A stretch of DNA of 64,000 nt from the NCBI RefSeq assembly GCF_022008365.1, contig NZ_JAIRBA010000021.1, positions 1-64,000 on the forward strand. The letters run 5' to 3'. Position numbers and translations under genes: made by a program. Below the pieces are notes generated by a model. That model saw only the letters and a list, made by a program, of their open reading frames with translations, did no database searches and was not told the DNA's origin. Positions 13,291 through 32,810 of the stretch are shown here, piece after piece. Numbering within the stretch: the first letter of the stretch is position 1; each line of letters opens with the position of its first letter. The DNA comes from Aequorivita vitellina. GTDB lineage: Bacteria; Bacteroidota; Bacteroidia; Flavobacteriales; Flavobacteriaceae.

Positions 13291-16200
13291 GTTTCAATCC
13301 TAGTTTCTAGATGGAGTGGTTGGGTATAAAAGTACTTAACCAAGAAATTATTGTACACGCTTTGTTTCAATCCTAGTTTCTAGATGGAGTGGTTGGGTAT
13401 GCCGCGGTAGGCATCGTTTTCAGTTTCGCCTAATTCGTTTCAATCCTAGTTTCTAGATGGAGTGGTGGGGTATTTAGAAAGCATTTTGAGAATTTTAATG
13501 TAACCTTTGAGTTTCAATCCTAGTTTCTAGATGGAGTGGTGGGGTATAACCATGAAAAATAAAAAACATATCGAAAATGTCTTGTTTCAATCCTAGTTTC
13601 TAGATGGAGTGGTGGGGTATGTTAATTTATCCAGACTGCCCAACTGGTGTCTTGGGTTTCAATCCTAGTTTCTAGATGGAGTGGTGGGGTATCTTATGTA
13701 TCCATTTGCAGGGGGAAGGTCGCCCTGTTTCAATCCTAGTTTCTAGATGGAGTGGTGGGGTATTATGGCGTTGGTGCTATCATCTCCAATTAGTTTGTTG
13801 TTTCAATCCTAGTTTCTAGATGGAGTGGTGGGGTATCATTGCACAACCCTACATCAAAACTTTCAAGTGTTGGTTTCAATCCTAGTTTCTAGATGGAGTG
13901 GTGGGGTATGAAATTGTAAACCGATATAAGCAAAGAAATCAATAGGTTTCAATCCTAGTTTCTAGATGGAGTGGTGGGGTATTGCAGTTACCAACATTGA
14001 AAACAAATAATCTTCATGTTTCAATCCTAGTTTCTAGATGGAGTGGTGGGGTATATTATGTAACTATAATCTAATTCAATGACAGAATAATGTTTCAATC
14101 CTAGTTTCTAGATGGAGTGGTGGGGTATGAAAACGGTGTAGCCATCTTCTTCTACCCAATCTGGTTTCAATCCTAGTTTCTAGATGGAGTGGTGGGGTAT
14201 CAAGCAGCCAAGCGCTATAATTAGTGCTATAATTAGGTTTCAATCCTAGTTTCTAGATGGAGTGGTGGGGTATATACCCGAAAATACAGGGGGTTCAACT
14301 GGTGTTGCAGTTTCAATCCTAGTTTCTAGATGGAGTGGTGGGGTATGATTGATTAGTTGCGGGTTTTATTGAATGCGACTTGTTTCAATCCTAGTTTCTA
14401 GATGGAGTGGTGGGGTATCTCGTTGATTTTCTTAAAATATTCAAGCGTTGAAGGGTTTCAATCCTAGTTTCTAGATGGAGTGGTGGGGTATACCGATGAT
14501 ATTGGAGCAACAGATATAGAAGTTGTGTTTCAATCCTAGTTTCTAGATGGAGTGGTGGGGTATTATTAGAGAGTTATACGGTGATTTTGTCGATGATTAG
14601 TTTCAATCCTAGTTTCTAGATGGAGTGGTGGGGTATACCATAACTATCTGCTCTGTACGGACTTAACGCTTGTTTCAATCCTAGTTTCTAGATGGAGTGG
14701 TGGGGTATTGTAAGTTTCCGTGTTTAAGTCTGAAATATCTTTTTGTTTCAATCCTAGTTTCTAGATGGAGTGGTGGGGTATAGCAACCTAGAACGGTTGC
14801 TTTTTTTATGTGCTTTTGTTTCAATCCTAGTTTCTAGATGGAGTGGTGGGGTATATAAGTGGCTTGGAGTTTTGTTTCGCCTTCGGGAAAGTTTCAATCC
14901 TAGTTTCTAGATGGAGTGGTGGGGTATAAGTCGTTCCTGCGCGGCTTTTACTTTTGCGGTACGGTTTCAATCCTAGTTTCTAGATGGAGTGGTGGGGTAT
15001 AAACAAAATCGAAGTCTATATATTCACCACCCTTCAGTTTCAATCCTAGTTTCTAGATGGAGTGGTGGGGTATACTTTTCAGGTCGCCACCCAAACGGGT
15101 TGCTAAATCGTTTCAATCCTAGTTTCTAGATGGAGTGGTGGGGTATCAACAAACCATATACGAGTCACGTTACACATAATTGTTTCAATCCTAGTTTCTA
15201 GATGGAGTGGTGGGGTATCTTAACAACCTTTTCCTCATTCTGTTTAGCGGTAAGTTTCAATCCTAGTTTCTAGATGGAGTGGTGGGGTATAATTTCAAAT
15301 TTAACAGGAAGTTTAAACGGAACAGTGTTTCAATCCTAGTTTCTAGATGGAGTGGTGGGGTATTGTGATTGTAACATCTGCGCTTGCAAGGTTAGTGATG
15401 TTTCAATCCTAGTTTCTAGATGGAGTGGTGGGGTATTTGTGCTGCTCCAAGTGCCGCAATCATTGCAATAAGTTTCAATCCTAGTTTCTAGATGGAGTGG
15501 TGGGGTATCATATCCCACGCATTGCTACTGCCATCGCCTTGGTGTTTCAATCCTAGTTTCTAGATGGAGTGGTGGGGTATATTTTTGAAACGTTGCTATC
15601 ACTATAATTTGCGGTGGTTTCAATCCTAGTTTCTAGATGGAGTGGTGGGGTATTCCACGGCGTTTAATTCACTTTCTAACCAATAAACGTTTCAATCCTA
15701 GTTTCTAGATGGAGTGGTGGGGTATAAGTTTAGGTAGGAATGCAAGAAGATTTTCCACCGTGTTTCAATCCTAGTTTCTAGATGGAGTGGTGGGGTATTC
15801 CCGTTGCAAAAGAAACTGTAAACCCATCGTACTTGTTTCAATCCTAGTTTCTAGATGGAGTGGTGGGGTATGCTGTCTGCATCCAATCTCTTTAACTCAG
15901 CAAGTAAGTTTCAATCCTAGTTTCTAGATGGAGTGGTGGGGTATCAACACCCGCAAGAACCCACAGCCCTTTTTTCGCCAGTTTCAATCCTAGTTTCTAG
16001 ATGGAGTGGTGGGGTATTGTAATTGCCACAATAGTAGCGGGTTACCTATTCGTGTTTCAATCCTAGTTTCTAGATGGAGTGGTGGGGTATAGGATAACCG
16101 GTGCCTACATTTTCCTGAGCGCCTACGGTTTCAATCCTAGTTTCTAGATGGAGTGGTGGGGTATAGTGGTTCCAAACTTCTTTTATTCAGAGAATTTTAC

Positions 16201-17474
16201 GTTTCAATCCTAGTTTCTAGATGGAGTGGTGGGGTATCCAATAGCATCTAATATATCTGCAGGTACCTTATGTTTCAATCCTAGTTTCTAGATGGAGTGG
16301 TGGGGTATTTTGGTGATATTTGGGAGTGGACTAACGGTGTTAACAGTTTCAATCCTAGTTTCTAGATGGAGTGGTGGGGTATTTTTCCTGTTAATGAACA
16401 AGAAATTCAAGAATTAGGTTTCAATCCTAGTTTCTAGATGGAGTGGTGGGGTATACATCTGGAAGATGGGTTTGGGTTTACAAACGAAAAGTTTCAATCC
16501 TAGTTTCTAGATGGAGTGGTGGGGTATCACCTAATGGTATAACTCCATTTGTTGAAAATGGGAGTTTCAATCCTAGTTTCTAGATGGAGTGGTGGGGTAT
16601 ATTGATATAATTTTTTCATAATCCCCATCAAAGTGTTTCAATCCTAGTTTCTAGATGGAGTGGTGGGGTATACAAATAACAGCAAACCGCACCTTAACAA
16701 TTTCTGAGTTTCAATCCTAGTTTCTAGATGGAGTGGTGGGGTATTGTCGCATTGGACACTATGACAAATGCAAGTTGGCGGTTTCAATCCTAGTTTCTAG
16801 ATGGAGTGGTGGGGTATAGTAGTTACAGTTTTTTTGTAACCTTAGTTACAATTGTTTCAATCCTAGTTTCTAGATGGAGTGGTGGGGTATACCATCCCGC
16901 TTTTGGGAGCACCACCATAAGTAGCATGTTTCAATCCTAGTTTCTAGATGGAGTGGTGGGGTATGGAATTAGCACTTGAACTTCATCCACTAATCCGTCT
17001 TGTTTCAATCCTAGTTTCTAGATGGAGTGGTGGGGTATAGTTACTGCATATCTAGTGCGGGATATGGAAAACGCGTTTCAATCCTAGTTTCTAGATGGAG
17101 TGGTGGGGTATAAAGATACAAAAAAAAGTCGGAATTTCCGACCTTGTTTCAATCCTAGTTTCTAGATGGAGTGGTGGGGTATTTAGGGTGAAAGATTTTT
17201 GCCCGAAAGAGCAAAGGCGTTTCAATCCTAGTTTCTAGATGGAGTGGTGGGGTATAAACGAAAAGTGTCACAATAATGACACACCATTAATAGTTTCAAT
17301 CCTAGTTTCTAGATGGAGTGGTGGGGTATGTGGTGTAGGATTTTACCTGTTTTGAAGGGGTGCAAGTTTCAATCCTAGTTTCTAGATGGAGTGGTGGGGT
17401 ATATTCGCCCAAACCTTCAGTTTGTATGGTGGCTTCAGTTTCAATCCTAGTTTCTAGATGGAGTGGTGGGGTAT
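13291..17474 (-). CRISPR. Subtype I-B CRISPR array, 58 repeats
   Basis: 58 repeats of 37 bp and 57 spacers of about 34-37 bp, mean period about 73 bp. The first repeat starts at 13291 and the last at 17438. On the + strand repeats begin GTTTCAATCCTAG and end GGTGGGGTAT. Read on the - strand they end in ATTGAAAC, the classic 8-nt crRNA 5' handle of I-B, so the array is read leftwards, away from the cas operon, with its leader at 17475-17668. Repeats 13291 and 13364 carry T instead of G at position 31 and sit next to a decayed repeat, which supports this being the old end. Several spacers contain hairpins; two look like intrinsic terminators (14782-14817 and 17112-17145). Confidence 0.99.
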
Positions 17475-20240: not shown

Positions 20241-22628
20241 TTAAAAAACAGCAACGGAATTGGACTCGGTTTTGCTTTTATAGCCTTGTTTTATATTGTA
20301 AAACTCTTCCCAATCGTCTCTTTTTATTATAACCATTTCTTTTTCTTCTTCTGTGGGTAGAAAAATATAATCTGGAATATTCACTACAAATTTCATCAGC
20401 TTTGGCATCAGCAATTGTATTTCTTGCTTTCTTCTAAAAAAATCGTTTTCAAACTTTTTCATATAATCGTTCCATAAATCTTCCGCCTCTTTATTAACAG
20501 GTATGAAATAACTATAGGTTATATATTTCTCAACAAACAATCGGTAATTTTTATCTGTCCCAATATTTTCAAATTTTAGAGTAAGAATATCCTTAATCAA
20601 ATTATTGCTGACGTCAGAACCTTCCTGAATCTTATTTTTTACAGCGGCGAAATATTTTTGATTTAATTCATAAAATTGATTTTCAGGAATTTGGGGAGAA
20701 AAGGAGTTTAAAACATTTTTGGTAATATCCAGTTGGGTGGGATCGTAAATTTTATCCTTGCCACTTCTGAACAGGATCACTTTAGATACGTCTTTTCCAG
20801 CATTTCGATTGCATCGCCCCGCTGCTTGATTTATGGAAGACAGGGGAGCAAAATCACGATAAACCGTGCCAAAATCGATATCTACTCCAGCCTCAACTAC
20901 CTGAGTGGAAACTAGGATTATTCGTTGATTCCTGTCCAATTTTTTTCTGATAGAAGAAAGAGTTTTTTCGCGGAAAAAGGGAATTATAGAAGCAGACAAA
21001 TAAAATAAACTGGTTTCTTCCACATAATCCGAAAGAAGTTGCCTTAGTTTTTGAGAGAAGCCAATGGTGTTACATATTATCAAAATAGATTTTTCATTTT
21101 CTTCATAATCTGTCAGAACAATTTCCATCAATTCTTCCTCATTCATCAATTCTTTCTTTTGTAGCAGAGAAGTGTCAAGAACAGTACGGTTCATTTGAGA
21201 GAAGAAGTAATCATCTTCATATTTAAAACACAATTCTTTGACTTTATTTTTCAGTAAAATGGGTTGAGTAGCAGTCACAAATATGAACTTAGTGTTGAAA
21301 TATTTTGCCATGGCTTCCATCACAAATTCGAATGCACGAAATAGTTTTGGATTAATAGATTGAACTTCATCCAAAATAATAATACTGTTTACCAGATTAT
21401 GAAACTTCCGAAGTTGGCGATTGTGATTGGCAAAAATGCTTTCCCATAATTGCACAAAAGTTGTAATGGTTATTTCACTTTGCCAGCCTTCTATAATATA
21501 TTCCCAGTTAGGATAAAACCCTTCTTCAATATCTTCCTTTTTTTTAATATCAGGAATCGAAAGGTGATGATGAACTCCGATATTTCCCTTGTCAATAACA
21601 GCACCCTCTAAAATATCATTAAAAACGCTTGCATTTTGATCAATGATGGATGTAAAAGGCAAGCAATAGACAATCCTAAAATCAGGGGCGTATTTTTCCT
21701 TAATTTGAAGTGCTGTTTTATAAGCGGTAAGCGTTTTTCCCAAACCCGTGGGAAGCGTAATGGAGTAAAAGTTTTGATCTCCAAGAGCAATGACCCGAGA
21801 AACGGCAGTTTGATAAGCCTCCTCTCTCAGAGTATTTATGGAATGTTGGGTTTGTATGAATTTGGATTTATACTCATCAATTATTTGACTTTTAATTGGA
21901 AAGCGTTTCCATTCTTTTTTTTGAAGCATCATATCGCCTTTGTCAGCACTTAAAAGGAATGAATACAAAAACAAGGTTTGAAAATAAAATGAACTGTTCT
22001 TATTTTGTGAAAGATCCGAAACAACTTTCATATCAAATTTGAATCCTTTAAAACTTGTTAATAATTCAGAAATATTTCCGAATTGAAATGGCAAATCTAG
22101 TTCGGACATCGTTCTTGCATATTTCACAAAATCTATAGTTGCTCCAGTTTCAACGAGTGTGTCTCTATCATTTCTTGGATTTACAGAAGCTTGTTCAAAA
22201 TTCTTAAGAGCACCGTGGTGGGCTTTCAGAATCTCTACAAACAGGAAGACTTCTTTGGAATATGTGATGGATTCATCCCATAAATACAAACTCATCCAAG
22301 CACCAAATAAAGCGTGATTTTTTAACGAGGGATTTTCTTTCCATTTTTTCAAATACACTTTGTTCTTCTCTATAAAACCTTCTAAAACCGCTTTAGAATA
22401 GTCCCTATGTTCTTTGTTATTTCCAAGAAGAGCATAAGCAAGATAAAGCTGAAAATAAACAGAAGCTTTAGCAAGATCGTGGTAGGCAATCAAAGCAAGA
22501 ACCTTATTCTTTAATTCTTCCGATGAAAAGAAGTTTTGTTTTTTCTCTGGAAGAATTTGCTCAGAAACCTTCTTCAACCCAGCTAAATGCTCTTTCAGCA
22601 ATCTGTCATCGTGAGAGATCCACTCCAT
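20241..22628 (-). CDS. cas3: CRISPR-associated helicase-nuclease Cas3
   Basis: 795 residues. An N-terminal HD nuclease (His6, His14, His50-Asp51 in AYHDLAK, His137-His138 in KAHHGAL) is fused to an SF2 helicase: Walker A LPTGLGKT at about 292-299, motif II DEVQ at about 420-423, motif III VTATQP at about 451-456, and a motif VI-like QAAGRCNRN in the second RecA domain. It is recruited by Cascade to unwind and degrade the target. The start overlaps the cas5 stop by one base. Both activities look intact. Confidence 0.96.
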   Translation of the reverse strand: MEWISHDDRLLKEHLAGLKKVSEQILPEKKQNFFSSEELKNKVLALIAYHDLAKASVYFQLYLAYALLGNNKEHRDYSKAVLEGFIEKNKVYLKKWKENPSLKNHALFGAWMSLYLWDESITYSKEVFLFVEILKAHHGALKNFEQASVNPRNDRDTLVETGATIDFVKYARTMSELDLPFQFGNISELLTSFKGFKFDMKVVSDLSQNKNSSFYFQTLFLYSFLLSADKGDMMLQKKEWKRFPIKSQIIDEYKSKFIQTQHSINTLREEAYQTAVSRVIALGDQNFYSITLPTGLGKTLTAYKTALQIKEKYAPDFRIVYCLPFTSIIDQNASVFNDILEGAVIDKGNIGVHHHLSIPDIKKKEDIEEGFYPNWEYIIEGWQSEITITTFVQLWESIFANHNRQLRKFHNLVNSIIILDEVQSINPKLFRAFEFVMEAMAKYFNTKFIFVTATQPILLKNKVKELCFKYEDDYFFSQMNRTVLDTSLLQKKELMNEEELMEIVLTDYEENEKSILIICNTIGFSQKLRQLLSDYVEETSLFYLSASIIPFFREKTLSSIRKKLDRNQRIILVSTQVVEAGVDIDFGTVYRDFAPLSSINQAAGRCNRNAGKDVSKVILFRSGKDKIYDPTQLDITKNVLNSFSPQIPENQFYELNQKYFAAVKNKIQEGSDVSNNLIKDILTLKFENIGTDKNYRLFVEKYITYSYFIPVNKEAEDLWNDYMKKFENDFFRRKQEIQLLMPKLMKFVVNIPDYIFLPTEEEKEMVIIKRDDWEEFYNIKQGYKSKTESNSVAVF

Positions 22629-23350
22629 TACATCATAATAATATTAACCGGCTGTCCTTTTAGAATTAGGCGATAGTATTTCTCAACTTCAGCCTGAATA
22701 GGATTACCATTTAGGTCAAATAAAATATTATCTCTCTTTGTAACCTCTCTGGTTGTATTCATTTCTAAAGGATACATTGCCTGTTCCTGAATGCGAACTT
22801 GATTTTCATTCCACGATGAAGTATCTAAACTTTTCACCTCGCTTTTCAAAAGAATGGAATCAATCACTGCAATCCCGTTATCTTCTTTTATCTCGTATTC
22901 TCCAAGAAACTGAAAATTCGCTAAACAATGTGCCAACCCTAAAACCGGAGTATAAACAGATTTCTTTTCCTCTAGGTTTTCTTTTAGCGAGTTATAAATT
23001 TCATCATTGGTGTGAGAGAAGAAAATCCGGTAACAAGGTTTGACAATATATTCCATTGTCGTCGGCTTTCGGTTATCTTTAATAGGTCCTGTTTTCGGTG
23101 AAAGATTGATATTAATCCTCAGAATCCGAATTGGATTGATAACCTGAATAGCCAATCGACAGTTAGCTTCATCAAAATAATCTAGATACTTGTTTTCTCT
23201 ATTATCCAATCCGATTATGGCTCCAACCAATCCGAATATGGAAGTTTTAAACGGCAAAGAATAAGTGAGAGCAGAAGTGGTTACATAGATCTTTTTGAAA
23301 TGAGCATAATCTCCCCAAATGTCGAAAACTAATGTCTTTTTAATTTCCAT
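22628..23350 (-). CDS. cas5: Cascade subunit Cas5 (subtype I-B, Cas5h-like)
   Basis: 240 residues. It opens with the RAMP strand LVFDIWGDYAHFKKIYVTTSALTY and the short SLPFKTSIFGLVGAIIG helix that is typical of Cas5. Cas5 binds the crRNA 5' handle and joins Cas7 and Cas8. It starts one base after the cas7 stop. There is no sign of an extra nuclease activity, as expected where Cas6 does the processing. Confidence 0.92.
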   Translation of the reverse strand: MEIKKTLVFDIWGDYAHFKKIYVTTSALTYSLPFKTSIFGLVGAIIGLDNRENKYLDYFDEANCRLAIQVINPIRILRININLSPKTGPIKDNRKPTTMEYIVKPCYRIFFSHTNDEIYNSLKENLEEKKSVYTPVLGLAHCLANFQFLGEYEIKEDNGIAVIDSILLKSEVKSLDTSSWNENQVRIQEQAMYPLEMNTTREVTKRDNILFDLNGNPIQAEVEKYYRLILKGQPVNIIMM

Positions 23351-23351
23351 T

Positions 23352-24239
23352 TTAAAATTCCAGTTCCTGAGCTTTAAATATTGGCTCGCTTAGTTGAAGT
23401 CTGTCATCTATTTTTACTTCCACAGATAGAATTTTATCCTGATGCTTCTGAAGAACCTGATTTAGTTTTTCCGTTTGCAAAACAAATTCTGTAACGTCCT
23501 GTATTTGATCTACTTCTTTATCATTTTCTACTAGTAATTCTATGTTTTCAAGAAGGTCACCAATATAAAAACCAGGCTGGTAATTTACCTTTACCAATAG
23601 GCGCGGCATATGACCTTTCTTTGATCTTGAAATCAAATCTTTGGTGCCATTCCAAGTTCCTTCAATGAATAAATTCATATCTTCATCTGTCAGTTTCGTA
23701 TGTTTTGCAGCGTTTTCATTAATGATTCCGTGAAACCCTATCAATCCATAGGTGATATTATACTCTTCCCTGAAGGTTTTTTGTTCTGCGCCTTCTTTTG
23801 TTGCGAAAGCTCCAGTTCCTTTAATAAAGTTTTCTTTTACAGGATGCAGGCTTTTCCCCATTCCAAATTGAACAGGACCAGTCAGGTTGAATTTTTTCCC
23901 TGTCGCGGCAGAAACCCCACCAAATAATCTTACATCAAGATATTTTTCGATAAACTCATCTTTGTCATTATAAGCTTTTGCCCTGGTAGCACCTGTTACT
24001 GGCTTGCCTCCTTCATCTCTGATAAAAATATCTTTATTGGCATCTGTTTGACCATCATATCCTTTCTCTAAAAAATAATCTCGGATGGTTCGTTTTAAAC
24101 GCACATCTGTTACCAAACAATGATTGGAATCTTCATCGATTCTGGGGCGGTTCATATCCATCGGATCGCCGTTGGGATTGGCATATTTTACATCGTAGAG
24201 AAATAAAATCTCGCTTCGGTTTTGAATAATGTTACTCAT
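23352..24239 (-). CDS. cas7: Cascade backbone subunit Cas7 (Csh2 family)
   Basis: 295 residues. The N-terminus with ILFLYDVKYANPNGDP, NRPRIDE and VTDVRLKRTIRDY is characteristic of the Csh2 branch of Cas7, which defines the I-B (Hmari-type) signature with Csh1. Several copies line the crRNA in the Cascade complex. Its ATG overlaps the cas8b stop (ATGA), so stoichiometry is probably set by coupling. The length is typical. Confidence 0.95.
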   Translation of the reverse strand: MSNIIQNRSEILFLYDVKYANPNGDPMDMNRPRIDEDSNHCLVTDVRLKRTIRDYFLEKGYDGQTDANKDIFIRDEGGKPVTGATRAKAYNDKDEFIEKYLDVRLFGGVSAATGKKFNLTGPVQFGMGKSLHPVKENFIKGTGAFATKEGAEQKTFREEYNITYGLIGFHGIINENAAKHTKLTDEDMNLFIEGTWNGTKDLISRSKKGHMPRLLVKVNYQPGFYIGDLLENIELLVENDKEVDQIQDVTEFVLQTEKLNQVLQKHQDKILSVEVKIDDRLQLSEPIFKAQELEF

Positions 24240-25993
24240 TTTTCTTCTGTATTTAATGATTTATTGTCTTTATTAATTCTGTCGAAATCTTTTTGCAGGA
24301 CTAATCCCATTGTAAATGCAAATGAAATTTCATCTTTACTGACTTTTTCTTCATTTGCAAAATAACGCATCGCTGCCGCTTCCAGAGAAGAGAACTCTTT
24401 GTCATATTGCCGCAGTCGCGCAATAAGTTTTGGAAATTTCTTTGAAATAAGATCCTTATCGATATTCAATCCATTCAGTTCTTTCATAAAAGCATTCCCA
24501 GGTTGATTGTATAACAACCGGGTGGTCAGACAGCCAAAAATAAAAGCTCCCTTTAGATATTCCTTCTCAAAATAAGCGGGATGAGCTTCTATAAAAGAAA
24601 ACGCATCTTGCTTCTCTGTTGTTAAACTGTGTTTACTCATTTTATATTCAGATTTAAAAATTTCTAATGCATTTAAGAAAATGAGATTCCCCAATGAATA
24701 TTTCACCAAATAGTTGAAGGTGTTTTCTTCATTATGATAATTCTCTTTGAACGATTTTTTCCAAGATTCTAATATCAAACGTATCACCTTGGAGTCATCA
24801 TAAGGCTGTCCAGTGAAAATGCTTTGAATTAATCTAAAAAAAGCTGGTTGGATATTTTTTTGACCAGTAATAAAATATTCTCTGAGTCGAAATAATGTAA
24901 TTTTTTGTTGTCTAACTTCTCCTTTTTTTGTTATATAGGTGGTGTAAATATGATAGTGGTTTTCAGCTTCTTTTTTTGCGTCCAAAACTTTAGCAATCCG
25001 TGATGGAAGAACATCATTCAGTTCAAGATATATCTTAAATTGAGCTTGTTGCTGCTCAAAGAACAACATTGTATAGTAGATATCGTTCCTCCTTAAATCT
25101 CCATCTTCTATAATTTCATTTAAAATTAATTCGGTATCATTAAAAAAACCATTGGCTCCATCATTATTATCAATATTAAGTGCGGCTTTATCCAAGAACT
25201 TGGAAGCTATGTATTGGGCTAAAGAGAGTTCCGGCTGAAATACGAAATGCGGGACTAGGGCATATTTAAAACTTCCGAAAAAATGGGCGCTTAATCTATT
25301 CAATAAAATCCCCCTTGCTCCTTCAAGGTATGGGATGGCCTCTTCAGAAACAGGAAACATTGTATAGGCTTTATTTGCATCAAAACTGTTTCTTCTAAAG
25401 GAATCCGCATCAACCGTGAAGCCCAATGTATCCACAAAACCATACACTGTGGCAGACTTATTTGTCAGCGCGCATAGCTGATTTTTCTTTTTGGTTTTCC
25501 CGTAATTCTTCTGATAATATTTTTTGTAAGCTTCTTCTTCAAATACACTTATATATTCTTCAAACTCACCGAAATATTTTCCGTCAATAGAAAAGGTAAT
25601 GATGTAGTAGTAACCTTTATTAAAATCAAATTCTTCAAAAAGGTGAATCGCCTTTTCTAGATCCTCTTTGGAAGTAAAATCCAAATTGTAATTTTCTATA
25701 CTTTGCCGGATTTTTTTAGAAGTTTTATTAGGATCTTTTGTATTTATATAAAGTGTAGGAACAGTATTAGTCCCATTAGCACCGGGAGGTCTTCTATATA
25801 AATATTTTGGAATAAAAGTAGAATTGAAATCCTCTAACTCAAAGTGTGAAAAACTTCCTTCTTCCACAATTCCCTTAAGAACTTTGCCGTTGATCTCTCT
25901 TCCTTCAAAGGGATTTTCTGCAGGAGAGAAGTATGGCTGCAGGTTTTCATCACTATATAATAATTTAGCAAAATTGTAGAGTGTTGTAATCAT
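24236..25993 (-). CDS. cas8b: Cascade large subunit Cas8b (Csh1 family)
   Basis: 585 residues, first gene of the I-B operon. It recognises the PAM and seed in target DNA. The domain order fits Csh1: an N-terminal part, a knuckle region near 170-185 and a helical C-terminal half. Where Csh1 proteins often have two CxxC pairs, this one has only one Cys (QLCALTNKSATVYG), so zinc binding there is probably lost. The gene begins with ATG at 25993; the region upstream is a long stretch without genes and should hold the operon promoter. The family call rests on neighbours, length and motif order more than on strong sequence identity. Confidence 0.88.
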   Translation of the reverse strand: MITTLYNFAKLLYSDENLQPYFSPAENPFEGREINGKVLKGIVEEGSFSHFELEDFNSTFIPKYLYRRPPGANGTNTVPTLYINTKDPNKTSKKIRQSIENYNLDFTSKEDLEKAIHLFEEFDFNKGYYYIITFSIDGKYFGEFEEYISVFEEEAYKKYYQKNYGKTKKKNQLCALTNKSATVYGFVDTLGFTVDADSFRRNSFDANKAYTMFPVSEEAIPYLEGARGILLNRLSAHFFGSFKYALVPHFVFQPELSLAQYIASKFLDKAALNIDNNDGANGFFNDTELILNEIIEDGDLRRNDIYYTMLFFEQQQAQFKIYLELNDVLPSRIAKVLDAKKEAENHYHIYTTYITKKGEVRQQKITLFRLREYFITGQKNIQPAFFRLIQSIFTGQPYDDSKVIRLILESWKKSFKENYHNEENTFNYLVKYSLGNLIFLNALEIFKSEYKMSKHSLTTEKQDAFSFIEAHPAYFEKEYLKGAFIFGCLTTRLLYNQPGNAFMKELNGLNIDKDLISKKFPKLIARLRQYDKEFSSLEAAAMRYFANEEKVSKDEISFAFTMGLVLQKDFDRINKDNKSLNTEEK

Positions 25994-26799: not shown

Positions 26800-27245
26800 C
26801 CATCTTCCCCTTAGAGAAACATTGGTCTTTTAAATAACCTTGGTAGATAGGGGAAGGAACACACAGATTAAACACGAAGTTGCTTACTCAAACCAAACTC
26901 ATCAAACGTCACCCTCAAAGGTGTCCGAGTGAATTTTAGAAAGTGCAGCGCGCTTACTAAAATTTGTATCGAGACCACCGGCTCCCAAAGCTCCAACAAT
27001 AATTTGTGAATTCTTGCCCCATTCGAAGCGCCACGAAGGAAACAGTAGTGACATTCACAACCACCCATCGAACGTAGCGAAAGAAAATAAAATTCGTGTA
27101 TTCGTGGTCCCCCAATCCCAATTCCCAAATCAACCAACCCCCAAAGCCCATTTTCAACTTCAACTTCGACTTCAACTTCGACTCCGAGGTAGTTAACCAA
27201 CATCGTATATGAAGCGTCCATTCATAGCGTAGTGTGAATAAATTG

Positions 27246-27322
27246 TATAGTATATATATAGTACTGGTATAGTAAGATTATAGTAACTTTATAGTATATT
27301 TACAGTATGTTTATAGTATATA
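27246..27322. repeat. Seven TATAGTA heptamers with exact 11-bp period
   Basis: TATAGTA starts at 27246, 27257, 27268, 27279, 27290, 27301 (as TACAGTA) and 27312. Each is followed by four variable bases. Only the heptamer is kept while the spacers differ, which looks like a row of protein binding sites on one face of the helix rather than simple slippage. No gene for a matching protein is identified. Confidence 0.8.
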
Positions 27323-27540
27323 AAATATACCATATACCCCTTGCAACGCTACTACGCTCATTAATCTACAATAGCAATAAATGCCTTGCTAATCTAATTA
27401 GCATTAAAACGAGCATCCATCTCCTTAAATTTAAAAAGCGATACCCAATATTTGTACACACAGAAATTACACCCGAACCCACAAAGTAGGGGAGGTGTTT
27501 AAGTAATTAACGCTGGGTTTAAATAAAATGGTGAAGCAAT

Positions 27541-27855
27541 CTAAACCAACAAAAGCAAAACCAAGCCAATAATAATTATGGTGTTGGTGAATAGGAGTGA
27601 TTTTAGATAATAGGCTAGCTTCCTATCGTGAATCCATTTTTTTACAAGGATATACCAACTCGCAGCTGCAAGAAAGATGGTCGCAATAGTAAATACAAGC
27701 TCGAAGGTATTTTCAAAAGAGGGTTCTGTGCTAATGTCGGTGCTGTCTTGTGTGAATATTTTATCCAGCACCAAGGAAACAGAAGTAAACAAAAGCATAA
27801 CTGTAATTACGTGAAATATAATTAAGGCTATTTTTTTTACTTCTGCAGTTCTCAT
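27541..27855 (-). CDS. Hypothetical small membrane protein
   Basis: 104 residues with three predicted membrane spans (about 9-30, 50-70 and 85-104); the protein ends in VLLLLV, so the last span reaches the C-terminus. No family is recognised. It stands alone on the - strand between the heptamer repeats and the AlkB-like gene. It is probably an inner membrane protein; the topology makes a real gene likely. Confidence 0.65.
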   Translation of the reverse strand: MRTAEVKKIALIIFHVITVMLLFTSVSLVLDKIFTQDSTDISTEPSFENTFELVFTIATIFLAAASWYILVKKWIHDRKLAYYLKSLLFTNTIIIIGLVLLLLV

Positions 27856-27946
27856 AAAATTTTGATGCTTTCCTTTAAGTAATTCAATGTGAAAGATGGG
27901 TGGCGTGAGTGGCTGTTACCACATTTTATACGCTCGTAAACCTAGT

Positions 27947-28555
27947 CTATGTCTCAATCGTCCTAAAAGTTAAATTAATCCGTGGCGCATGCACTTTCCT
28001 TGTTGGTGGCAGTCGGTGCAGCCAATGGCTTTGGGTTGTGCCTTTCATTATCAAAAGGCTGCCGTTTTGTAGATTTAGTGAAACCGTTTCCTTCGTCTCT
28101 TTATGCTTAAACGCAAATTTCCGCTCCGCCCCAAAACTTACCGAGGCGATGGCGCTATTTCTTTTAAGATCTTTTTCGGCATCGCTGTGCCACGCCATGC
28201 CTTCTTCGCCACTGTGGTAAAGATTCAACAAACAACTATTAAAAGTATCGCCGCACTTGGCTTCAACCTGCTTTTTAAGTTGCAGCAACTCGGGCGTCCA
28301 CAACTGTGCTTTTTTGGTGACTTTAGAATAGGTGTATTCAAACTCGCGTTCGCCGTACCACGCCACTTTTCGCTTTGTGATAATTTTTTTTCCGAAGATA
28401 ATGGTTTCGTCGTTTTTCCAAGCAATTGTATTCAGTAATATATCGAAATAGCGGTTCGCTTCTTCTTCAGTAAAAACTGTTCCAAAGTAATTCACAGTGC
28501 CGTCTTTGGGAAGTAGGTTGCGTTGCGTATCCCTTTCAAAATCGAACAATTCCAT
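27947..28555 (-). CDS. alkB: AlkB-like 2-oxoglutarate/Fe(II) dioxygenase
   Basis: About 202 residues from the ATG at 28555 (a TTG at 28564 would add three residues). The AlkB fold motifs are seen: MAWHSDAE gives the first His and the Asp of the iron site, HWLHRLPPT the second His, and RINLTFRT the Arg pair that holds 2-oxoglutarate; NYFGTVF and the SVSFGAERKFAF strand fit the AlkB core. The protein should remove alkyl lesions from DNA or RNA. It is a single gene divergent from lemA. The human ALKBH2/3-like layout (short N-terminus) suits DNA repair. Confidence 0.92.
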   Translation of the reverse strand: MELFDFERDTQRNLLPKDGTVNYFGTVFTEEEANRYFDILLNTIAWKNDETIIFGKKIITKRKVAWYGEREFEYTYSKVTKKAQLWTPELLQLKKQVEAKCGDTFNSCLLNLYHSGEEGMAWHSDAEKDLKRNSAIASVSFGAERKFAFKHKETKETVSLNLQNGSLLIMKGTTQSHWLHRLPPTRKVHAPRINLTFRTIET

Positions 28556-28652
28556 AGCTTTCAAAACTATTACTTTCTATTTATATCAGGGCAAAATGAC
28601 TTGTTAATTTTACACATATTCTTATAAAAGTTGAAGAGGAAACCTATTCAAA

Positions 28653-32412: not shown

Positions 32413-32500
32413 AACAGTATTGCCGGATTTTAAAAAAACATGATGTCCCTTCGAGACATTTGTTTAGCTGCAATATCGTACTATTTTCCGACAAAATGCG

Positions 32501-32810
32501 GTTAGGTATTAAATATGGGTAGAAAATGGCAACCCGTCACTTCCAAGTCCCGTAGGGACTACTGGGGCATAATGCCGTTAGGCATTAAATATAGGTAGAA
32601 AATGGAAACCCGTCACTTCCTCGTCCCGTAGGGACTACTGAGGCATAATGCTATTAGGCATTAAATATTGGTAGAAAATAGAGGACCGTCACTTCCAAGT
32701 CCCGTAGGGACTACTGGGGCATAATGCCGTTAGGCATTAAATATGGGTAGAAAATAGAGACCCGTCAATTCTAAGTCCCGTAGGGACTACATATAACATG
32801 GGGCATAACA
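32501..32810. repeat. Four tandem 76-bp units with two hairpins each
   Basis: Units start at 32501, 32577, 32653 and 32729; the fourth is altered near its end by an extra ATATAACA. Each full unit holds two short palindromes: AATGCC-GTTA-GGCATT across the unit junction and AGTCCC-GTA-GGGACT. Units differ by several substitutions but keep both stems, including a TGCTATTAGGCA variant at the third junction. This resembles REP/BIME-type palindromic repeats. It lies between the secreted protein gene and dapD, downstream of dapD. Confidence 0.9.

Follow-up and report, generated by a model that had tools for sequence, protein, structure and literature searches.

Direct repeats at an 11-bp step in Aequorivita vitellina and their apparent link with one branch of a candidate new gene family of Bacteroidota

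Introduction

Plasmid iterons and the 11-bp repeats of parC are phased direct repeats. Short direct repeats also form the operators of excisionase (RDF) type proteins. As described for phage 186, Apl recognises 6-bp direct-repeat sites at 10-11-bp spacing, seven of them at pR-pL; it needs three adjacent sites, single sites being weak, and it represses promoters (PMC7498355). In the account given in PMC11963761, BldC leaves one DNA turn between the protomers bound over a promoter, and RdfS forms a head-to-tail filament. Direct repeats of the heptamer TAACTGA are reported from Beggiatoaceae, Cyanobacteria and a few Bacteroidetes, including Aequorivita sublithincola, and in one species they lie mostly just before start codons (PMC4679880).

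Here we describe an array of phased heptamers from Aequorivita vitellina. The window, i.e. the whole stretch of DNA that was analysed, comprises 64,000 nucleotides (contig NZ_JAIRBA010000021.1, positions 1 to 64,000). A first-pass annotation had read the array as a row of protein-binding sites and had offered a plasmid-type origin, a recombination site and a defence regulator as possible contexts. The origin found no support: Pfam revealed no replication gene among eight neighbouring genes and, in contrast to iterons and parC, no Rep, ParM or ParR family among them.

The window array, with at least three adjacent direct repeats about one turn apart, resembles the operator rows of 186 Apl, P2 Cox and lambda Xis as presented in PMC7498355, which likewise are short-core direct repeats one turn apart, several of them adjacent, at a promoter. 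It differs from them in the exactness of its 11-bp step and in a core that follows the branch of an unrelated gene family; also, no RDF gene was found tied to the array in a search with one HTH family, nor was an integrase found there. The winged-helix filaments of BldC and RdfS, as far as PMC11963761 describes them, have a weak or absent consensus, whereas the array has a clear 7-bp core. The TAACTGA repeats have another sequence and, in their description (PMC4679880), apparently no spacers, whereas here a 7+4 unit accompanies one gene family.

Results

The array in the window

Pattern matches and Tandem Repeats Finder place the array at 27246-27318 on the plus strand. Its seven 7-bp cores, six TATAGTA and one TACAGTA, start at 27246, 27257, 27268, 27279, 27290, 27301 (the TACAGTA) and 27312, which confirms the exact 11-bp step noted earlier; the end previously given, 27322, takes in the array itself but also four bases past the last core. 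The six spacers are all different (in order TATA, CTGG, AGAT, ACTT, TATT, TGTT), and Tandem Repeats Finder scored the 11-bp array low (54, 70% matches). A two-core pattern with at most two mismatches matched seven times in the window, six of them in the array, against 0.48 expected from shuffling (largest 3). As had been observed, no recognised gene covers the array; with a minimum of 60 aa, the one ORF to reach into its end is a mechanical one of 60 aa (27307-27489). Read on the minus strand, which is that of the putatively lost gene discussed below, the array consists of TACTATA cores preceding the gene. With its 7-bp core and exact 11-bp step it is of the same type as the arrays of the TACTATA sub-branch of that gene family.

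The MAK gene family

We call the gene family tied to these arrays MAK. It is apparently undescribed, as far as library scans and literature searches show. Members were scanned without a match against Pfam (five), NCBIfam (two) and PADLOC (two), while four proteins compared with PHROGs had insignificant matches only, none better than E 0.046. The literature searches returned nothing on 11-bp repeats together with Flavobacterium or on intergenic 11-bp tandem repeats in Bacteroidetes, no paper on TATAGTA that was relevant by title among the matches listed, and no match for the family name DUF6266.

MAK proteins are mostly about 250 aa long (about 200-250 aa) and start, for example, with MA(K/R)Q.GI.KL.GT. 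In seven proteins tested, the N-terminal half had a pI of 9.6-10.5 and the C-terminal half one of 4.1-6.9. An AlphaFold2 model built from 7 sequences (pLDDT 78.6, pTM 0.71) has a low-confidence N-terminus and a predicted C-terminal beta sandwich without a clear relative; Foldseek against PDB and viral models gave no match at E up to 0.001, and no DNA-binding fold was recognised in the predicted structure. VIA with this model reached a best Z of 6.2 for the C-terminal beta sandwich, which may reflect merely a common arrangement. A nine-sequence profile detected MAK in 25 of 28 Aequorivita genomes, with up to 12 hits per genome (fragments counted), and in 28 of 296 genomes drawn from the phylum.

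A phage origin and a defence system were tried as identities and rejected. One MAK protein had no match in 50,697 phage records at E 1e-5, and a scan of viral contigs with one MAK protein found no relative; 35 viral stretches match the DNA pattern, with 3 to 5 units each, many of which resemble simple repeats by eye. Two MAK and four operon proteins had no PADLOC match. Among 72,556 plasmid records there was a single one, with a MAK gene.

Several genomic settings of MAK were noted besides. A recurrent Bacteroidota cassette (L178:272-2300, L180, L240, L243 and others) combines MAK with a DUF5675 gene and two genes for small membrane-protein-like products, often together with a divergent small HTH gene, and is reminiscent of a lysis cassette; PF18925 (DUF5675) was tested in L178 only. 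On a 25-kb Marivirga plasmid (NZ_CP129969.1:19139-19885, L209) a MAK gene adjoins an annotated DUF5675 gene; it bears no annotated feature itself and was split across frames in the ORF search. In G001 (L220:13-1168) MAK adjoins a gene pair that by eye resembles an AbiEii-type toxin-antitoxin system.

The orthologous locus with an intact gene

Two blocks around the window array have counterparts in G016, the genome of a sister species. Window positions 27483-27867, with the 104-aa gene, are 76% identical to G016:2095021-2095393, and positions 27068-27145 are 76% identical to G016:2093907-2093985. The second block, on the minus strand, matches the last ~19 bp of a MAK gene and ~60 bp past its stop. 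Between the blocks G016 has an array and, 55 bp away, the intact MAK gene, whose start thus lies within 250 bp of the array in the orientation found throughout; the window has here only 100 bp (27146-27245) in place of ~780 bp in G016, which hold nearly the whole MAK gene and the gene-to-array stretch (blastn against L275). A tblastn search produced nothing near the window array that clearly matched MAK, nor a MAK start within 250 bp. The GVEVEVEVEVENG stretch of a 117-aa mechanical ORF may be a slipped 3' remnant of MAK, as judged by eye.

The neighbours on the other side of the array agree as well. The 104-aa probable membrane-protein gene (27541-27855, minus strand) has its orthologue (64% over 92 aa) on the same side of the array in G016, and next to it lies an AlkB-like 2OG-Fe(II) oxygenase gene (27947-28564, minus strand), whose G016 orthologue is 1.7 kb beyond that of the 104-aa gene. 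Since sequence matches on both sides of the array and G016 carries a MAK gene between, sequence comparison identifies the window array as orthologous to the MAK-linked array of G016, the gene having been lost from the window. Deletion is preferred to a gain in G016, which would be a less simple reading.

Genes of cas3, cas5, cas7 and TM1802 type (20241-25993, minus strand) lie on the gene side of the array, at a distance of 1.25 kb, and were judged unrelated. A CRISPR-linked element was rejected because the orthologous G016 array sits beside MAK and ABC-transporter-like genes (by eye), and these neighbours likewise leave the suggested defence link, in the form of CRISPR-Cas genes, unsupported.

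Arrays upstream of one MAK branch

If arrays accompany MAK genes, then we can ask how regularly they do so. Self-similarity at lag 11 was evaluated in 300-bp flanks against the 99% shuffle level, for the surroundings of most MAK hits. It was present upstream of 50 of 125 MAK genes versus downstream of 5 of 121, and none of the other lags from 6 to 20 exceeded 15 MAK genes upstream. In a control of 190 ORFs (150 aa or more, taken from loci retrieved on account of other genes) seven passed lag 11 upstream. Two of these proved to be MAK genes and three adjoin known arrays (C44, CBS-permease); the remaining two are unrelated, and one of this pair sits at the threshold.

A tree of 110 MAK proteins was split at the midpoint, and one side, 34 proteins with support 100/98, forms the array-bearing branch; the limits of the tree groups were drawn with the arrays already known, and a tool warning makes the placement of L346 and L333 unsure. 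Lag-11 similarity was found upstream of all 34 genes of this branch and downstream of 1 of 31 (N excluded in branch counts), although these genes are kin and the counts are not independent events. The other MAK groups gave 5/7, 0/10, 0/12, 2/16 and, for the rest, 9/31; the group with 0/12 at lag 11 has 5/12 at lag 10.

The individual loci agree with these counts. At named flavobacterial loci where the whole MAK start is present, the array stands 41-91 bp before it. Of 36 TATAGTA arrays listed in the genus, 14 have a MAK match or fragment starting no more than 250 bp away; the orientation was identical in all 14. Moreover, all 15 Aequorivita genomes with TATAGTA arrays have a MAK gene or fragment from the array-bearing branch; a hand-made table for MAK genes of the TACTATA type gave a Fisher p of 4e-7, not corrected for relatedness. 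These sequence comparisons show that the genes of one MAK branch are preceded by arrays at an 11-bp step, whose cores vary from sub-branch to sub-branch.

Other periodicities were recorded on the way. Within 300 bp on the downstream side, genes of the array-bearing branch often have repeats of 7-bp period (lags 7, 14 and 21 in 13, 10 and 9 of 31), and lag 7 is also common upstream of control ORFs (23/190). In L404 the 300 bp before position 2519, which precede a control ORF, hold an unrelated 11-bp-periodic stretch (TATGGCTTTGG-like).

Variable core, constant step

All core patterns used here were written after the arrays had been seen. In a sub-branch of 19 genes, every one has at least two in-phase cores of TACTATA or CGCTATA type (on the other strand TATAGTA or TATAGCG). 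Such in-phase TACTATA-type cores are absent from a sub-branch of seven (0/7), all of whose members have three or four in-phase RTYnnYAT cores, a pattern found at most twice in the 19. The strict form GTCnnCAT occurs in the sub-branch of seven with at least two in-phase cores in three genes and with one in the other four. An operon-type MAK group has four or five in-phase ATRCnnnAT cores in five of its seven genes. Four genomes (G000, G003, G005 and G022) hold both TACTATA-type and GTC-type arrays, each before its own MAK sub-branch.

The spacers, which had been called free, are freer than the cores but not wholly so: their four positions carry 0.70, 1.35, 0.32 and 1.15 bits in 86 units picked by a core pattern that leaves spacer positions unfixed.

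Distribution of the arrays

The genome-wide search that the first-pass annotation had proposed was carried out, and the window array proved to be one of five in its own genome (G000, 197 contigs). They lie on C44, C110, C111 (the window), C143 and C153, with about 6 to 7 units each and differing spacers. A three-core pattern with up to three mismatches had 26 matches in G000 versus one for the backward pattern.

With at most two mismatches, arrays were found in 15 of 59 sampled genomes, G000 included, and all 15 are among the 28 Aequorivita genomes; the backward-pattern control matched three of the 59, all outside Aequorivita. Beyond the genus, TATAGTA arrays with no more than one mismatch are rare: 2 of 295 other sampled genomes of the phylum have them. 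A broad scan of genome contigs gave at least 114 stretches with arrays; 102 of the 114 listed belong, to judge by their titles, to Bacteroidota, and 10 have a MAK-family match, all 10 titled as Flavobacteriia. TATAGTA arrays of Paludibacteraceae and others had no MAK-family match in the fetched stretches.

Several Aequorivita genomes have further GTC-type arrays that are not beside MAK genes, and the backward pattern gave none there; G004 has a GTC-type array although there is no MAK hit in its genome. Arrays of the GTCGGCATA type, again at an 11-bp step, are present in several copies per genome (G005, G018, G022, G026), many of them away from the MAK genes listed. Four of the 36 genus arrays, all from G013, contain another repeat, TATACTAGGCT, and three of those loci have flanks in common.

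Paraflavisolibacter caeni is a separate case. At least 15 of its stretches have TATAGTA arrays (L065, L074, L095, L098, L105, L110, L121, L126, L129, L131, L142, L143, L148, L158, L168), with spacers mostly in the same order, and many of these arrays are followed by 11-bp-periodic sequence with another core, e.g. TACTCCGTATC; they form a dispersed repeat. The 15 stretches listed contain no MAK match.

Remnants and conservation at arrays without a MAK gene

Some arrays without an intact gene keep traces of it. By sequence comparison the C143 array of G000 carries a piece of a MAK gene, codons ~201-245 (tblastn E 7e-7). At the C110 array an apparent frame-shifted MAK start, MARQK/GFIKIEG, was seen by eye and missed by tblastn, and MAK genes are present at this locus in four other species. 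At the C153 array no remnant was visible or detected by tblastn. In G016 another array, at 54.6 kb, is accompanied by a broken MAK gene. Altogether tblastn searched 22 sites for remnants (18 loci with MAK-less arrays from other genomes of the genus, L348-L365, together with C110, C143, C153 and the window) and gave clear matches only at C143 and at G013:C60.

Orthologous arrays were compared between genomes, as had been proposed. For MAK-less arrays there were three such sets (of 4, 3 and 2 genomes), in which core identity was 91, 92 and 100%, spacer identity 77, 79 and 63% and flank identity 80, 66 and 67%, a contrast biased upward by the fact that the arrays were found by their cores. A fourth set, the C110 MAK locus, where three of five arrays could be placed, had 74% (31/42) in cores, 58% in spacers and 70% (511/726) in flanks. 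Cores thus surpass spacers in the MAK-less sets but have no clear advantage at the C110 MAK locus. Between orthologues the copy number changes by whole units (6 versus 7). A site between a CBS-like gene and a permease gene (names by eye), searched by its flank, has an array within 900 bp in 4 of 26 genomes and not in the other 22. In two G013 copies the gene start is the same and the sequence from there to the array almost so, whereas within the array and beyond it their identity falls.

Discussion

In our view the window array is probably a row of operator sites at a promoter of the MAK family, and the gene served by that promoter has since been deleted here. Each core would bind one protomer of a small protein; we infer such binding from the sequence pattern. 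All cores would face one side of the DNA in one orientation. Neighbouring protomers may associate head to tail and so cooperate in binding, and the row, close ahead of the presumed promoter, would set MAK expression. Paralogues within a genome differ in their cores, whereas relatives from different genomes have the same ones; the binding protein is therefore probably a product of the MAK gene itself or of a gene that goes with it. MAK itself is the first candidate, because its N-terminal half is strongly basic and the cores are linked to its branch. The row in the window would now be an orphan, which may be decaying or may serve the protein from the C44 copy as an additional site. The original reading as a row of phased protein-binding sites fits the cross-genome comparisons, except that the fourth set of orthologues does not have the core advantage of the other three. 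Other points speak against our view: several other MAK branches often have no 11-bp arrays, most arrays of the broad contig scan have no MAK gene next to them, G004 has an array but no MAK hit, and the predicted MAK structure has no recognised DNA-binding fold.

More tentatively, MAK may be a new kind of DNA-binding protein, with one protomer per helical turn and a core specificity diversified by branch, and MAK with its array an autoregulated, copyable unit, the MAK-less arrays being footprints still recognised in trans. The association described here connects an intergenic repeat that had lacked an explanation with a gene family of Bacteroidota that is multi-copy and apparently undescribed. 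The natural core variants at a constant 11-bp step make DNA recognition by a phased filament testable, both as to the protein that binds and as to the residues that vary along with the core.

The row might instead be bound by a small protein of the winged-helix excisionase (RDF) type, not by MAK, as a filament site at a promoter or recombination site, which we regard as rather doubtful. The similar direct-repeat row of 186 Apl, which represses promoters (PMC7498355), argues for it, as do the many operon-type MAK loci with a divergent HTH gene of ~61-77 aa; in L178 and near relatives the array lies between the two genes, and PHROGs matches the L178 HTH protein weakly with Cox-like excisionases (E 5e-4). 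However, the L178-type protein has no Pfam match, and by eye no small HTH appears among the divergent ORFs beside the array-bearing branch (longest ORF only). The HTH family, searched with the L178 protein as query, is absent from 7 of the 15 Aequorivita genomes with TATAGTA arrays, and it is therefore an unlikely binder of these arrays.

It is unlikely, too, that the array is one half of a mobile or homing unit, with MAK as the other. MAK genes would then settle next to arrays or be copied along with them, and MAK-less arrays would resemble solo LTRs. Multiplicity within one genome (up to the 12 hits, fragments included, mentioned above) would suit such a unit, and so would the G013 copies, whose identity drops within and beyond the array, and the scattered presence at the CBS-permease site (4/26 genomes only). 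The closest tree relative of the G016 MAK protein is the G000 MAK on C44, at another place, which points the same way. However, ordinary recombination, i.e. duplication and loss, would look alike, and an unsystematic look noticed no transposase, recombinase or target duplication; the recombination site suggested at first likewise stays unsupported, with no recombinase gene noticed tied to arrays in that look.

Action in RNA, with proteins binding the array within the MAK mRNA leader, is very improbable. The array does lie mostly some tens of bases before the start codon in the array-bearing branch, in one orientation in 14/14, but a TATnTTAG-like element seen by eye between array and start codon would place the transcription start after the array, and the step equals one DNA turn. 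That the array is a functionless tandem repeat of the ordinary, slippage-grown kind, as the whole-unit differences between orthologues might suggest, is the least probable reading and is already largely refuted by the fixed position and orientation before MAK genes of one branch and by the branch-wide lag-11 results, and further, the spacers vary from unit to unit while the cores stay, the units are not alike over their whole length, and the same core recurs at unrelated places.

The window holds other repeats besides the operator row proposed here. A long CRISPR array with a 37-bp repeat (13577-17258) lies near the cas3, cas5, cas7 and TM1802 genes. A 76-bp unit is repeated 3.9 times, with 89% matches, at 32495-32790, and a 76/151-bp unit is present in about 7-15 copies at 48-1157.
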